Translations under genes and position numbers: made by a program | Notes under the pieces: generated by a model | Databases searched by the model: none | The model's input: only the letters and a program-made list of their open reading frames with translations | What the model was told of the DNA's origin: nothing | Assembly: GCF_000737325.1 (NCBI RefSeq) | Contig: NZ_CP011125.1 | Location: forward strand, 1,302,001 to 1,366,000 | DNA length: 64,000 nucleotides | Origin: Sandaracinus amylolyticus | GTDB taxonomy: Bacteria; Myxococcota_A; Polyangia; Polyangiales; Sandaracinaceae | Direction of reading: 5' to 3' | In this document: piece by piece, positions 46,623 to 51,295 of the stretch | How positions within the stretch are numbered: the first letter of the stretch is position 1 | Layout of the letters: the number at the start of each line of letters is the position of its first letter

Positions 46623-47666
46623 TCACCAATCCGCGATCGCCGCGCCCCACGTGAACCCCGAGCCGAAGGCGACCATCGCGACCTTCATGCCGGGCTTCAG
46701 GCGACCCGTCTCCTCGGCCTCGGCGAGGAGCAGCGGGATCGTCGCCGCCGTGGTGTTGCCGTACTTGTGGATGTTGTGGATCAGCTTGTCCTGCGGGATC
46801 CCGAGCGTGTCCGCGACATACGTGTTGATGCGCATGTTCGCCTGGTGGAACACGAAGAGATCGATGTCGTTCGCGGAGAGCGACTGATCGAAGCAGACCT
46901 GCATGAGCGACATGCACATCTTCTCCACCGCGTGGCGGAAGACCTGCTTGCCGTCCATCTGCGGCCAGAGCGTGCCGGGATCGATCTCGGCCTTGCCGTC
47001 GCGCCCGTGGGGCAGGTTGACGAAGGGCTTCTTGCGGATGTCCCACACGGGCATCCAGAGCGCCTCCGCGAAGCGGCCGTCCGCGCCGAGGTGCCACTTG
47101 CGCACGCCGCGCTTCGGGTCGTCGGTCGCGCTCACGACCACGGCGCCCGCGCCGTCGCCGAAGAGCGAAGTCACGGTGCGCCCGCGCGTCGTCATGTCGA
47201 GCGCCGCCGAGTGCGTCTCGCCACCGACGACGAGCACGTGCTTGAGCGCGCCCGACTGCACCATCGAGGAGGCCGTGCCGAGGCCGTAGAGGAACCCGCT
47301 GCACTGGTTGCGGATGTCCATCGCGGGCACGTACTTGGGCATGTCGCCCTCGAAGAGCTCCGCGAACTTTCGCTGCATGAACACGCCGCTGCCCGGGAAG
47401 TGATGCTCGGGCGAGAGCGTCGCGAAGAGGATCATGTCGATGTCGCGCGGCGTGAGCCCGGCGCGCTGGATCGCGATCTTCGCCGCCTCGAAGCCCATGT
47501 CCGCCGAGCCCACGCCGTCCTCGGCGTAGCGGCGCTCTTCGATCCCGGTGCGCTGGTGGATCCACTCGTGGGTGGTGTCGATCCCGTACTGCGTGCGGAG
47601 ATCGTCGTTCGTCACCACGCGCGGCGGCACGTAGCCACCGGTTCCCGAGATGTAGGCGTTCGGCAC
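46623..47666 (-). CDS. 3-oxoacyl-ACP synthase III (FabH-like)
   Basis: A 347-residue thiolase-fold enzyme. The catalytic Cys122 is in IRNQCSGFLYGL, His in FHQANMRI and Asn in HKYGNTTAATIP: the Cys-His-Asn triad of KAS III. KAS III condenses an acyl-CoA with malonyl-ACP. The sequence is longer than FabH (about 317) and typical of the group that also includes OleA-like and specialised initiation enzymes. GTG 47666 has GGAGG ten bases upstream. It is alone on the minus strand except for the downstream phosphoesterase. Confidence 0.92.
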   Translation of the reverse strand: MPNAYISGTGGYVPPRVVTNDDLRTQYGIDTTHEWIHQRTGIEERRYAEDGVGSADMGFEAAKIAIQRAGLTPRDIDMILFATLSPEHHFPGSGVFMQRKFAELFEGDMPKYVPAMDIRNQCSGFLYGLGTASSMVQSGALKHVLVVGGETHSAALDMTTRGRTVTSLFGDGAGAVVVSATDDPKRGVRKWHLGADGRFAEALWMPVWDIRKKPFVNLPHGRDGKAEIDPGTLWPQMDGKQVFRHAVEKMCMSLMQVCFDQSLSANDIDLFVFHQANMRINTYVADTLGIPQDKLIHNIHKYGNTTAATIPLLLAEAEETGRLKPGMKVAMVAFGSGFTWGAAIADW

Positions 47667-48005
47667 GGTTCTGAAACCTCCAGGGAGGCGCGTCGCGTAG
47701 CACGTCCGGGCGAGCCTGCACAAATGGACGATTGAGGGAGCCCTCGCGCGCTTCCCCGGGACGTTCGGACGTGGATGCGACCGCGCGTCGCGCACACGAA
47801 TGCCTCAGCGGGGCAGCCTGCTGCGCGTCTGCGGGCTCGGGTGATCGTCGCACGGCTCGACGTTTCGCGAGCGTTTCGCGGCGCGGTCTACGCGGTGTGA
47901 CGCGCGTGCGGCGTGAGACGAGACGCTGCAGTCGGGGCACGCGCCATGCAGCCGCGGGACGGCCTACCGGGGACGACCGAGCACGGCGAGCACCAGAGGA
48001 GACAC
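47667..48005. promoter_or_regulatory. Divergent intergenic region
   Basis: The 339-base space between the KAS III gene and the dodecin-domain gene holds no credible ORF. Promoters for both should be here. GTTTCGC occurs twice (near 47862 and 47873) as a direct repeat. GAGGAGA directly precedes the dodecin gene start. Confidence 0.4.
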
Positions 48006-48542
48006 ATGCGTCAGGACTGGGGAATGAACGGGTACGGCGGCGACTGGCGCTTCCAGCAGCACGGGCGCGAGGACGACCGCTCGATGGGCATGCGCGGCCG
48101 CGACATGGAGCGCGGCGGGCGCGGCGGTTGGGCGCGCGACGACGATCAGCGCGAGCGGAGCTTCGGCTCCGGGATGCGCGATCGCGACGAGTGGCGCTCC
48201 GGCAACGGACGCGGCGGCAGCGAGGGCTGGGGCTACGAGGGACGCGGCGAGCGCATGCGCGGCGACGACGACGTGCGCCTCGAGCGCGGCGAGGCGCCGA
48301 TCGTGAAGGTGATCGAGGTCGTCGCGCAGTCGCCGCACTCGTGGGAGGACGCGACGCGTCGCGCGGTCGCGGAGGCGAGCCGCACGATCGACGACATCAA
48401 GTCGATCTACGTGAAGGACATGCAGGCGATCGTCGCGAACGGGCGCATCGTCGAGTTCCGGCTCGTGGCGAAGATCTCGTTCGCGGTGCACGAGCACATG
48501 CGCTCTCGCCGCGCGCGCGAGGGTCGCCGCGAGTACGCCTGA
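48006..48542 (+). CDS. Dodecin-domain protein with disordered Arg/Gly N-terminus
   Basis: A 178-residue protein. Residues 1-95 are disordered and rich in Arg, Gly, Asp and Trp (WRF, EWRSG, GRGG). Residues 98-164 match dodecin: VKVIEVVAQSPHSWEDATRR, then IYVKDMQAIVANGRIVEFR. Dodecin is a small flavin-binding dodecamer; a normal one is about 70 residues, so the tail is added. ATG 48006 has GAGGAGA upstream. It is followed by a hairpin terminator and a second gene with a similar N-terminal region. Confidence 0.88.
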   Translation: MRQDWGMNGYGGDWRFQQHGREDDRSMGMRGRDMERGGRGGWARDDDQRERSFGSGMRDRDEWRSGNGRGGSEGWGYEGRGERMRGDDDVRLERGEAPIVKVIEVVAQSPHSWEDATRRAVAEASRTIDDIKSIYVKDMQAIVANGRIVEFRLVAKISFAVHEHMRSRRAREGRREYA

Positions 48543-48549
48543 TCCACGG

Positions 48550-48580
48550 CGACTGGCGCGCTCGTCGAGCGTGCCAGTCG
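48550..48580 (+). terminator. Terminator hairpin of the dodecin gene
   Basis: CGACTGGC-g-CGCTC and GAGCG-t-GCCAGTCG form a 13-base interrupted stem starting eight bases after the stop. There is no T-run. Confidence 0.6.
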
Positions 48581-48704
48581 CGAGCACGTCAGTCGCGCAC
48601 GACGGAGCGAGGGAGTCGGGCACGTCGTGTGTCCGACTCCTCGCGTCTGGGGCGCACGACGCGCACGAATGAACAAAAAAGCGAAGACGGACGGAGGCAA
48701 TCGA

Positions 48705-49871
48705 ATGGATCGCGATCGTCGGTACGGATGGGGCGAGGACCGTGAGCGCTGGGGCCGTGACCGCGACGAGCGTCGCGGCGGAGCCTCGCGCGAGCGCGAC
48801 GACGACCAGCGCGAGCGCGGCGGGTACTTCGGCCGCACGCGCGACGAGGACTGGCGCAGCGCGTCGAGCGACTGGGGTGGTCGGGAGGACGACTGGCGCG
48901 GTCGCGACTACGGCACCTACGAGCGCTCGATGACGCGGCGCGAGGAGGACTGGCGCGGTCGCGACTACGGGCGCGACGACGAGCACGGCTATGGCCGCAT
49001 GGGGCTCGGCGAGCGCGGCGGTTGGGGCAGCTCGCACGCGACCGGCGGATACGGCGCGGGCCAGCGCGAGAGCGGCACGACGGGCATGGGCCTCGGTGGT
49101 CGCACGAGCTCGTTCGGCACGTCGGGCGGCTATGGCGGCTCGAGCTACGGAATGGGCGGGACCGGCACGCCGGGAGGCTACGGCGGGTACACGCGCGGCG
49201 GCACCGGAGGCTACGGCGCGAGCACCGGGTACGGCGGCGGCTACGGCCACGGCGCGACCGGCATGGGCGGCTATGGCAGCTACGGCGGCGGTGGCAGCTA
49301 CGGCGCGGGCAGCAGCTACGGCGGGGGCGGCTACGGCACGAGCACCTACGGGCGCGGTGAGCAGCGCGAGCGCGGAGCGAGCGGCTGGGAGCGCGAGCGC
49401 GATCGGGAGCGCGGCGGCTGGGAGCGTGATCGCGACGAGCGCGAGGAGGGCGGCTTCTTCCAGCGCATGGGCGAGGGGATCCGCAACGCGTTCGGCCTCG
49501 GTGATCGCGAGCGCGGACCGTTCTTCGGCAAGGGCCCGAAGGGCTACAAGCGCAGCGACGAGCGCATCCGCGAGGAGGTCTCGGAGGTCATCGCGCGCCA
49601 GGGCTGGATCGACGCGAGCGAGGTCGAGGTGAAGGTGGCGAGCGGCGAGGTGACGCTCACCGGAACCGTCTCGGACCGCGAGCACAAGCGGCGCCTCGAG
49701 CAGATGATCGAGGACGTGCACGGCGTCGACGACGTGCGCAACGAGCTCCGTGTGAAGCGCACCGAGCTGCACACGCAGACGGGCACCGCCGGGACGTACT
49801 CGACGACCACGACGAGCGGCGGCGACGCGACCGAGGGCGGCACCCGCGGTCGGAACGCGCGCTCGTCCTGA
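48705..49871 (+). CDS. BON-domain protein with long disordered Arg/Gly-Tyr N-terminus
   Basis: A 388-residue protein. Residues 1-100 are Arg/Asp/Gly/Trp-rich and resemble the dodecin gene tail (DDDQRERGG, DEDWRS). Residues 100-245 are Gly/Tyr/Ser repeats such as GYGGS and GYGSYGGGG. After that come GPKGYKRSDERIREEVSEVI and a BON domain with VEVKVASGEVTLTGTV. The BON domain binds phospholipid or peptidoglycan; the SWFGD-type segment before it often goes with it. ATG 48705 is preferred because GGAGG is seven bases upstream; ATG 48669 lacks a site. Confidence 0.88.
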   Translation: MDRDRRYGWGEDRERWGRDRDERRGGASRERDDDQRERGGYFGRTRDEDWRSASSDWGGREDDWRGRDYGTYERSMTRREEDWRGRDYGRDDEHGYGRMGLGERGGWGSSHATGGYGAGQRESGTTGMGLGGRTSSFGTSGGYGGSSYGMGGTGTPGGYGGYTRGGTGGYGASTGYGGGYGHGATGMGGYGSYGGGGSYGAGSSYGGGGYGTSTYGRGEQRERGASGWERERDRERGGWERDRDEREEGGFFQRMGEGIRNAFGLGDRERGPFFGKGPKGYKRSDERIREEVSEVIARQGWIDASEVEVKVASGEVTLTGTVSDREHKRRLEQMIEDVHGVDDVRNELRVKRTELHTQTGTAGTYSTTTTSGGDATEGGTRGRNARSS

Positions 49872-49895
49872 GCCACGGCGCGAGCACGAGAGCAC

Positions 49896-49930
49896 GCGGG
49901 CGCGCGGGGCGGATGGCCCGGCGCGCCCGC
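49896..49930. terminator. Bidirectional terminator
   Basis: GCGGGCGCGC (49896-49905) pairs with GCGCGCCCGC (49921-49930) between the convergent BON-domain gene and a small minus-strand gene. Confidence 0.7.
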
Positions 49931-49947
49931 GTCGCGTTCCGTCGTCG

Positions 49948-50202
49948 TCACGCGTGATCGTCGGCGGTGCGAGGCAGCCCGTGATCGCGCTCGCGCGCAC
50001 CGTTCTCGCTGCGCGGGCGCGGGGCCGCGGCGCGCTCGGCGCGGTGTCGCTCGATGCGCACGGTGAGCTCGCTGCTGCGCTCGGCGAAGGTCGCGATCAT
50101 CTCGGTCACCATCTCGACCGCGATCGCGCCCCCGACGCGGCCCATCGTGCGCGCGAGGCGCTTCAAGCGCTTGCGCGTCTTCTTCTTCAGCTTGTGCCTC
50201 AT
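49948..50202 (-). CDS. Small basic protein of unknown function
   Basis: An 84-residue protein. The first 22 residues are highly basic (RHKLKKKTRKRLKRLARTMG). Residues 23-45 are a hydrophobic to amphipathic helix, followed by an Arg/Glu-rich charged tail. It might be a membrane- or nucleic-acid-associated protein. It is divergent from another small basic protein (50378-50620) whose N-terminus has the same Lys/Arg-rich look. No family is recognised. Confidence 0.5.
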   Translation of the reverse strand: MRHKLKKKTRKRLKRLARTMGRVGGAIAVEMVTEMIATFAERSSELTVRIERHRAERAAAPRPRSENGARERDHGLPRTADDHA

Positions 50203-50377
50203 CGCGACGCGTGCGGTGCAACCGAGGTGCCGCGGGGCGCGTCGCCTGCGCATGCGAGCGCCACAGGGCGAGGCGACATTGCGCATCTCGGTTCGCGGGA
50301 CGCCGGGAGAATTTCCCCACGAACGCGCCTGGGGCGCACGCCGGGGACGCGGTACGCGGGCTGCAAATCCTTCCTTC

Positions 50378-50620
50378 GTGGCGAAGAAGGCGAAGCGACT
50401 CCGCAAGCGCATCCGCAAGTCGGTGCGCCGCGCGATGCCGATCGCGGCACCGCTGCTCGGCGCCGCCGCGATCGCGGGCGCGGTCGGATCGGCGCTCGCG
50501 AGCGATTCGTTGCGCGAGCGGGTGCGCAGCGCGTTCGACGTGGCGATCGCGCGATGGCGGGATCGGCGCGAGGGCGAGCGCGAAGCGCGCCCCGCGCCTG
50601 CGGTCGCGGATGCCATCTGA
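50378..50620 (+). CDS. Small basic membrane-type protein
   Basis: An 80-residue protein starting at GTG. It has a basic N-terminus (AKKAKRLRKRIRKSVRRA) and a hydrophobic helix (PIAAPLLGAAAIAGAVGSALA), then a charged amphipathic tail. The layout is like that of the divergent neighbour at 49948-50202. No ribosome site is obvious. Function is unknown. Confidence 0.5.
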   Translation: MAKKAKRLRKRIRKSVRRAMPIAAPLLGAAAIAGAVGSALASDSLRERVRSAFDVAIARWRDRREGEREARPAPAVADAI

Positions 50621-50671
50621 GCCGCGAGGATGTCGAGGCACGGGACGCCGGGGCGGTGTCGAGGAGAAGCG

Positions 50672-51295
50672 ATGACGACGAGCCGAGTCGAGATGCAGCA
50701 GCACGACGTGGAGCGTGCGCGGGAGCTCAACCCGCACCGGGCGCTCCTCACGAGCCTCTTCCACGAGCTCTTCCAGACCGAGCGCTCCGCGGAGATCCAC
50801 CCGCCGCTCGAGGCCGCGCGTCTGGGGAACAGCGCGCCCGCGCGCGCGCTCCGCGCCGTGTCGTCGCATGCGGCGTCGGTTCGTCCCGAGCTGCCCGAGC
50901 TGGCGCGGCGGCGTGGGCTGCCGGTGTCGCGGACGGGCAAGCGCATCGGAGACAGCTTCTCGTGGGTGCGGCGCCACTTCACCGACGGCGTGATGGAGTC
51001 GGAGCGCTCGTATCGCGCGACGTTGCTCGGCATCCGCCACGGCGTCGATCTCGTGAAGCTGATCCGCAGCGCGGCAGAGGCGGCGGACGATCGTGATCTC
51101 GTCTCGTGGTGCACCGAGTGGCTCTCGGTGCGTGAGCCGCTCGTCGAGGAGGTCTGCGCGCAGCTCGCGTGGTTCGGGTGGCACCCGGAGAGCGCGATCC
51201 AGCACACCGGCAAGGTGCGCGGTCTGCTGGATCGTCTGCTCGGCCGCGCCGACCGCGACGGGTCGCGCTCGTCGCCGGCGCTCGGTCAGGTGTGA
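50672..51295 (+). CDS. Helical protein of unknown function
   Basis: A 207-residue, all-helical soluble protein. Residues 80-110 (VSRTGKRIGDSFSWVRRHFTD) and 110-175 form long helices with His/Glu and Trp residues, loosely resembling ferritin-like four-helix bundles, but I see no paired ExxH motif. ATG 50672 has AGGAG nine bases upstream. It follows the small basic protein by 51 bases and may be co-transcribed with it. Confidence 0.6.
   Translation: MTTSRVEMQQHDVERARELNPHRALLTSLFHELFQTERSAEIHPPLEAARLGNSAPARALRAVSSHAASVRPELPELARRRGLPVSRTGKRIGDSFSWVRRHFTDGVMESERSYRATLLGIRHGVDLVKLIRSAAEAADDRDLVSWCTEWLSVREPLVEEVCAQLAWFGWHPESAIQHTGKVRGLLDRLLGRADRDGSRSSPALGQV

Follow-up and report, generated by a model that had tools for sequence, protein, structure and literature searches.

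Dodecins (Pfam PF07311) are 12-mers with both termini at the surface, and the flavins bound in dodecin sit between symmetry-related tryptophans, according to one account of the family (PMC7414021). For BON-domain proteins (PF04972), which include OsmY, Kbp and DolP, disordered termini have been described generally in one source (PMC11747388). In yeast, condensates form when disordered regions are carried by 24-mer or 60-mer cores, as set out in a further report (PMC11230906). The open-access literature searched yielded no paper in which "dodecin" and "BON domain" occur together.

In Sandaracinus amylolyticus, a soil myxobacterium, a dodecin gene and a BON gene lie side by side in the window analysed here, a stretch of 64,000 nucleotides taken from one contig of 10,327,335 bases (positions 1302001-1366000). 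The window dodecin has the same strand-helix-strand-strand fold as the PF07311 family and its member Rv0379 (PDB: 3onr), and differs from PF07311 dodecins by a 98-residue N-terminal arm that is absent from the other dodecins examined. The second protein has one BON domain, as in the family of OsmY, Kbp and DolP, and differs from these three by the lack of a leader, by a 275-residue Arg/Gly/aromatic arm and by its adjacency to a dodecin. A preliminary description of the locus had proposed two neighbouring genes whose unrelated domains are preceded by disordered Arg-rich regions, and this is borne out by the Pfam matches, pLDDT values and composition reported below.

The two genes and their folded domains

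The dodecin gene lies on the + strand at 48006-48542, from an ATG at 48006 to a stop codon ending at 48542, and encodes 178 residues; its ribosome site, AGAGGAGACAC, stands immediately 5' of the ATG and is identical in the sister species (G002). The BON gene follows on the same strand at 48705-49871 (ATG at 48705, stop codon ending at 49871; 388 residues). Upstream of the dodecin gene, the opposite strand carries a frame judged by eye to encode a FabH-type enzyme. The next gene after the pair (50672-51292) encodes a 207-residue protein without a Pfam match, which has 88.9% identity in G002 and a dN/dS of 0.181. Minimum free energy and comparison with G002 place two long hairpins in the 162-base gap between the genes (48543-48704, + strand). 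The gap folds with a minimum free energy of -85.3 kcal/mol (z -4.49) and is retained in G002, where it measures 166 bases at 0.827 identity. It is not a dispersed repeat, its genome matches being itself and two partial ones. The hairpins have no T-run; a terminator, an attenuator and an mRNA stabiliser are candidate roles. A promoter and terminator scan of 47600-50700 found none, and with the hairpins between them the dodecin and BON genes may or may not be co-transcribed.

The dodecin domain (residues 99-161; 48300-48488, + strand) matches PF07311 with an E-value of 6.9e-22 and a score of 78 bits (cut-off 22.5), and the best Foldseek matches of the predicted structure are dodecins (target TM 0.78-0.88). 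Flavin dodecins and 3onr rank equally in this search, so the fold alone is not decisive on flavin. When the Thermus thermophilus dodecin chain (residues 4-68) is aligned to residues 99-163, Trp38, which is named in the title of PDB entry 2vyx (a W38F entry), falls on Ser133, and Gln57, also a flavin-site residue, falls on Arg152. Both replacements are invariant across all nine aligned rows of the subfamily. The closest PDB sequence is Rv0379 (3onr; chain SecE2, E = 1.7e-06), in which the flavin Trp and Gln are likewise missing from their positions; the entry is titled calcium dodecin, and the likeness of the window protein to it is one of sequence proximity only. The NCBIfam dodecin equivalogs were missed, with 39.3 bits against a cut-off of 75 (NF043052) and 27 against 100 (NF041389). 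With both of these residues replaced, this protein is unlikely to store flavin, and the tie to flavin storage proposed in the preliminary description is not supported. A 12-meric state is assumed from the solved relatives. The C-terminal extension, with the stop codon (48489-48542, + strand), is predicted as a helix with low confidence.

The BON domain (residues 284-351; 49554-49757, + strand) matches PF04972 with an E-value of 2.3e-16 and a score of 60.3 bits (cut-off 27), and has pLDDT values of 77-89 by block. The nearest solved relatives found for it are OsmY and Kbp, and the NCBIfam cut-offs of the OsmY- and DolP-type equivalogs were not reached. On reading the sequence, the protein carries neither the export leader nor the lipobox of periplasmic BON proteins, and its arm has no leader or hydrophobic segment (Ile, Leu and Val make up 1.5% of the first 275 residues). 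The suggested link to envelope binding thus finds no support. One open frame elsewhere in the genome (bases 7239926-7241251) has five weak tandem BON-like matches.

Composition and evolution of the arms

What had been called tails are N-terminal arms that precede the folded domains. The dodecin arm (48006-48299, + strand; 98 residues) is predicted to be disordered and contains 20 Arg, 5 Trp and no Lys. The BON arm (48705-49529, + strand; 275 residues) has Arg/Asp/Trp, Gly/Tyr and Arg/Glu parts with 44 Arg and no Lys, and the Gly-Tyr low-complexity stretch noted earlier is found at about residues 100-218. The pLDDT is 40-46 over the first nine ten-residue blocks of the dodecin, compared with 87-95 in its domain, and below 50 over residues 1-281 of the BON protein, values that are low partly because the structure-model alignments were shallow (8 and 3 rows, respectively). 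Ile, Leu and Val account for about 2% of each window arm, so disorder can be argued independently of pLDDT.

Nine arms from three genera, 1807 residues in all, contain 250 Arg, no Lys and no Cys. Their aromatic content is 7.5-18%, Gly 6-30%, GRAVY -0.54 to -1.92, and net charge per residue lies between -0.02 and +0.04 in all nine. RGG triplets occur in the Sandaracinus arms (three in the dodecin, five in the BON protein); the dodecin arms from Labilithrix and Polyangiaceae Bin8.16 have none. The Labilithrix BON arm differs in make-up, with 13% charged residues, 16% Asn/Gln and abundant Phe. One Labilithrix BON partner (L080 3318-5594, 759 residues) has a 654-residue arm with FG/PFERN and PWQQQ repeats and 78 Phe; the second Labilithrix BON gene (L086 3208-5593) has an apparent frame break in its contig. 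Gene calling by third-position GC gave 30 genes that make up 55% of the window; a Lys-free arm-like stretch was seen in only two, and these are the two neighbours. Lys accounts for 0.113 of Arg+Lys in the 30 genes and for 0.073 in 58 control segments low in Ile/Leu/Val. If each genus is represented by a single pair (169 Arg), zero Lys has a probability of 1.6e-9 against the 30 genes and of about 3e-6 against the control segments, figures that treat residues as independent and so overstate the evidence.

The DDDQRER motif reported for both proteins, followed by DE(D)WRS-type motifs, is present, with DEWRS at dodecin residue 61 and DEDWRS at BON residue 47. The longest substring common to both arms is RDDDQRER, and none of 2000 dodecin-arm shuffles reaches its eight residues. 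Local alignment of the dodecin arm with the first 100 BON residues gives a score of 106. Shuffling by composition or in 15-residue windows attains it 4-15 times in 1000, and dipeptide-preserving shuffling 96-100 times in 1000. Since the latter reaches the score so often, the whole-arm similarity is mostly one of composition. In G002, the dodecin retains DDDQRER, and the BON protein has HDEEHRER instead; the longest common substring of that pair is a 5-mer at chance level (788 of 2000 shuffles). The G002 dodecin and the window BON protein have RDDDQRERGG in common. The earlier observation of similar arms is confirmed in this species, where the exact 8-mer exceeds chance; the BON protein of the sister species no longer has the motif.

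In the other two genera, Labilithrix and Polyangiaceae Bin8.16, no motif shared by dodecin and BON arms was found above chance. Within-genus arm alignments outside Sandaracinus are no better than chance, and the arm sequences are unalignable across genera. The idea that arms are matched more within than between genera was rejected, as no clear diagonal appeared. Tails varying without pattern had been named beforehand as a sign against a common role; the sequence does vary freely between genera, but the composition is constant. A look for the same tail in other genes had also been suggested: the dodecin arm matched only itself in its own genome (next E-value 0.17), in a search insensitive to low-complexity arms that missed the BON arm at an E-value of 10. 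With the whole BON protein, matches beyond itself were confined to the BON-end region.

The selection estimates come from small counts in one species pair, the window genome and G002. For the dodecin, dN/dS is 0.148 in the arm (17 synonymous, 11 non-synonymous), 0 in the domain (10 and 0) and 0.798 in the C-terminal extension (2 and 5), and the arm is, as judged from these counts, under purifying selection. The three blocks of the BON arm give 0.455, 0.476 and 0.108, and the BON domain 0.156; the second block has 40 gap codons relative to G002. By its first two blocks, the BON arm is apparently fast-evolving.

Distribution of the subfamily and its pairing

The dodecin subfamily was found in 5 of 317 Polyangia genomes (62-100% identity), the five belonging to three genera, with other dodecins occurring at 33-44% identity in ten of the 317. 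All five genomes have both the dodecin arm and an adjacent tailed BON gene. The arms measure 98, 102, 53, 67 and 67 residues, each after a ribosome-site-like stretch. In both Sandaracinus genomes and in Polyangiaceae Bin8.16 (L079), dodecin and BON genes share a strand, the BON gene lying downstream. In Labilithrix, the order is swapped, with the BON gene first, then a short lipoprotein-like frame and then the dodecin. Antisense shadows apart, dodecin and BON are the only genes common to the compared neighbourhoods of different genera among the matches listed. The five paired genomes have two to five BON matches each, and such numbers do not in themselves make a BON gene a neighbour of the dodecin.

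A pattern scan of an 84,980-species collection returned ten loci, namely Polyangiaceae Bin8.16, the Labilithrix MAGs L080 and L086, and contigs of Trueperaceae, seven in number; in the DNA examined around the arm-less subfamily relatives on these seven, no BON neighbour was seen. About 2.2 kb from one Trueperaceae dodecin, a minus-strand frame (L084 8373-8699) resembles, by eye, CsbD/YjbJ-like stress proteins. When 56 genomes, the window genome included, were searched with the dodecin, ten matched; the arm is common only to the same-genus G002 (93% identical overall), and the eight others have short dodecins, with no BON gene in the surrounding stretches examined. A phylum-wide search of 377 evenly drawn genomes with the dodecin domain of Polyangiaceae Bin8.16 found, at an E-value of 1e-13, only the window genome, G002 and a tail-less protein in G003. 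In G001, of the same genus, neither gene was found at the thresholds used; this fits joint loss, but the assembly, of 6.0 Mb, is broken into 820 contigs.

The start codons of dodecin genes were compared across 54 loci (L011-L019, L049-L078 and L089-L103; one larger set of matches is represented by 30 loci), six of which represent the five tailed genomes, one counted twice. In all 48 others, some of which duplicate a genome, the start codon (45 ATG, 3 GTG) lies 0-12 codons before the domain; this test is not decisive alone, as an ATG that lacks a ribosome site likewise stands 12 codons ahead of the domain in the tailed L091. When 24 BON domains were placed in a tree, those paired with a dodecin in the window genome, G002 and both Labilithrix MAGs clustered apart from other BONs (support 94/88); the L079 partner is unplaced and most forks are weak.

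In G004, from the same family, three unpaired BON proteins each have 27-40 Arg and a single Lys in the arm, the Lys lying at the domain junction. The three genes (L105, L106), two of which lie about 9 kb apart, encode Gln/Gly/Tyr-rich, Lys-poor arms. Because unpaired BONs carry similar arms, the BON arm apparently does not need the dodecin. For the same reason, this kind of arm seems to have arisen earlier in the BON proteins, and we infer that the dodecin later gained a matching arm. A scan of 16 stretches near unpaired BONs matched the pairs, further BONs and a number of open frames that may not be coding (L107, L108, L111, L022); being set to 60 residues, it missed the dodecin arms of Labilithrix and Polyangiaceae Bin8.16, whose length is smaller or whose Ile/Leu/Val content is higher.

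Possible roles of the pair

The reading that we tentatively favour is that the dodecin-BON pair encodes a cytosolic co-assembly, either a multivalent scaffold or a condensate. The dodecin would assemble as a 12-mer, like its relatives, and the arms on its outer face would make it a hub of twelve sticky chains; the longer BON arm would mingle with these through Arg-aromatic and Arg-acid contacts; and the resulting body would concentrate the ligand of the BON domain, plausibly under osmotic or general stress. Arg favours such condensate contacts more than Lys. Attraction between the arms, and the BON protein as the partner, are suggested by the gene pairing and the shared chemistry. The scaffold or condensate put forward in the preliminary description has become more plausible with the pairing in three genera, the single arm chemistry and the surface termini of 12-mers, but the co-assembly itself is conjectural. 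Against it, three genera only offer few pairings, which may go back to one shared origin. The similar arms of the unpaired G004 BONs, the deviating make-up of the Labilithrix BON arm, the chance-level arm alignments outside Sandaracinus, the rapid change of the BON arm and the hairpins between the genes also weigh against it. The further proposal that the dodecin fold has been reused here as a scaffold core and not a flavin store, making a natural condensate hub with twelve Lys-free arms tied to a cytosolic BON protein in three Polyangia genera, is possible and rather doubtful.

Other explanations draw on the same observations. Hydrophilin- or LEA-like arms could shield cell contents independently in drying or osmotic stress, the genes adjoining simply as stress genes; the Gly-rich, hydrophilic composition and the kinship of the BON domain to OsmY and Kbp agree with this. 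LEA proteins, however, are Lys-rich, and the aromatic content and zero Lys of the arms are unlike them, while the constant BON adjacency of one dodecin subfamily is left unexplained, and we consider this account somewhat unlikely. It is unlikely, too, that the arms are loosely constrained low-complexity linkers without a shared role, alike only through high-GC codon bias. Their unalignability across genera, the many indels in the BON arm and a whole-arm similarity near the dipeptide-shuffle level would all be expected of such linkers, but the low dN/dS of the dodecin arm, the absence of Lys against either background, the restriction of such stretches to two adjoining genes of the 30 called and the near-domain starts of all 48 other dodecin loci speak against them.

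The RGG triplets of both Sandaracinus arms, together with the Arg/Gly/Tyr composition, could also mark nucleic-acid binders that draw both proteins to RNA or DNA. The near-zero net charge of all nine arms and the RGG-free dodecin arms of the other two genera make this improbable. Least credible by far is the original version, a scaffold joining flavin storage to the envelope. The dodecin fold is compatible with it, and BON domains are often membrane-acting according to one source (PMC11747388), but the invariant Ser133 and Arg152 and the missing hydrophobic leader both contradict it.

If the co-assembly reading is true, the locus would provide a condensate in bacteria whose core is defined, symmetrical and encoded in the genome and for which a single partner is evident, which makes an easy two-component test system; it would also extend the role of dodecins beyond flavin storage and give a cytosolic BON protein a partner. 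By analogy, the layout of the window pair is alike in kind to systems that place disordered regions on a core. Corelets and IDR-ferritin fusions, as presented in one report (PMC11230906), likewise have disordered chains on a symmetrical multimeric core. The window system differs from them in being natural, in its probable 12-mer instead of a 24- or 60-mer, in its genome-linked partner and in being known here from sequence alone, and would thus be a natural counterpart to these engineered IDR-core tools.
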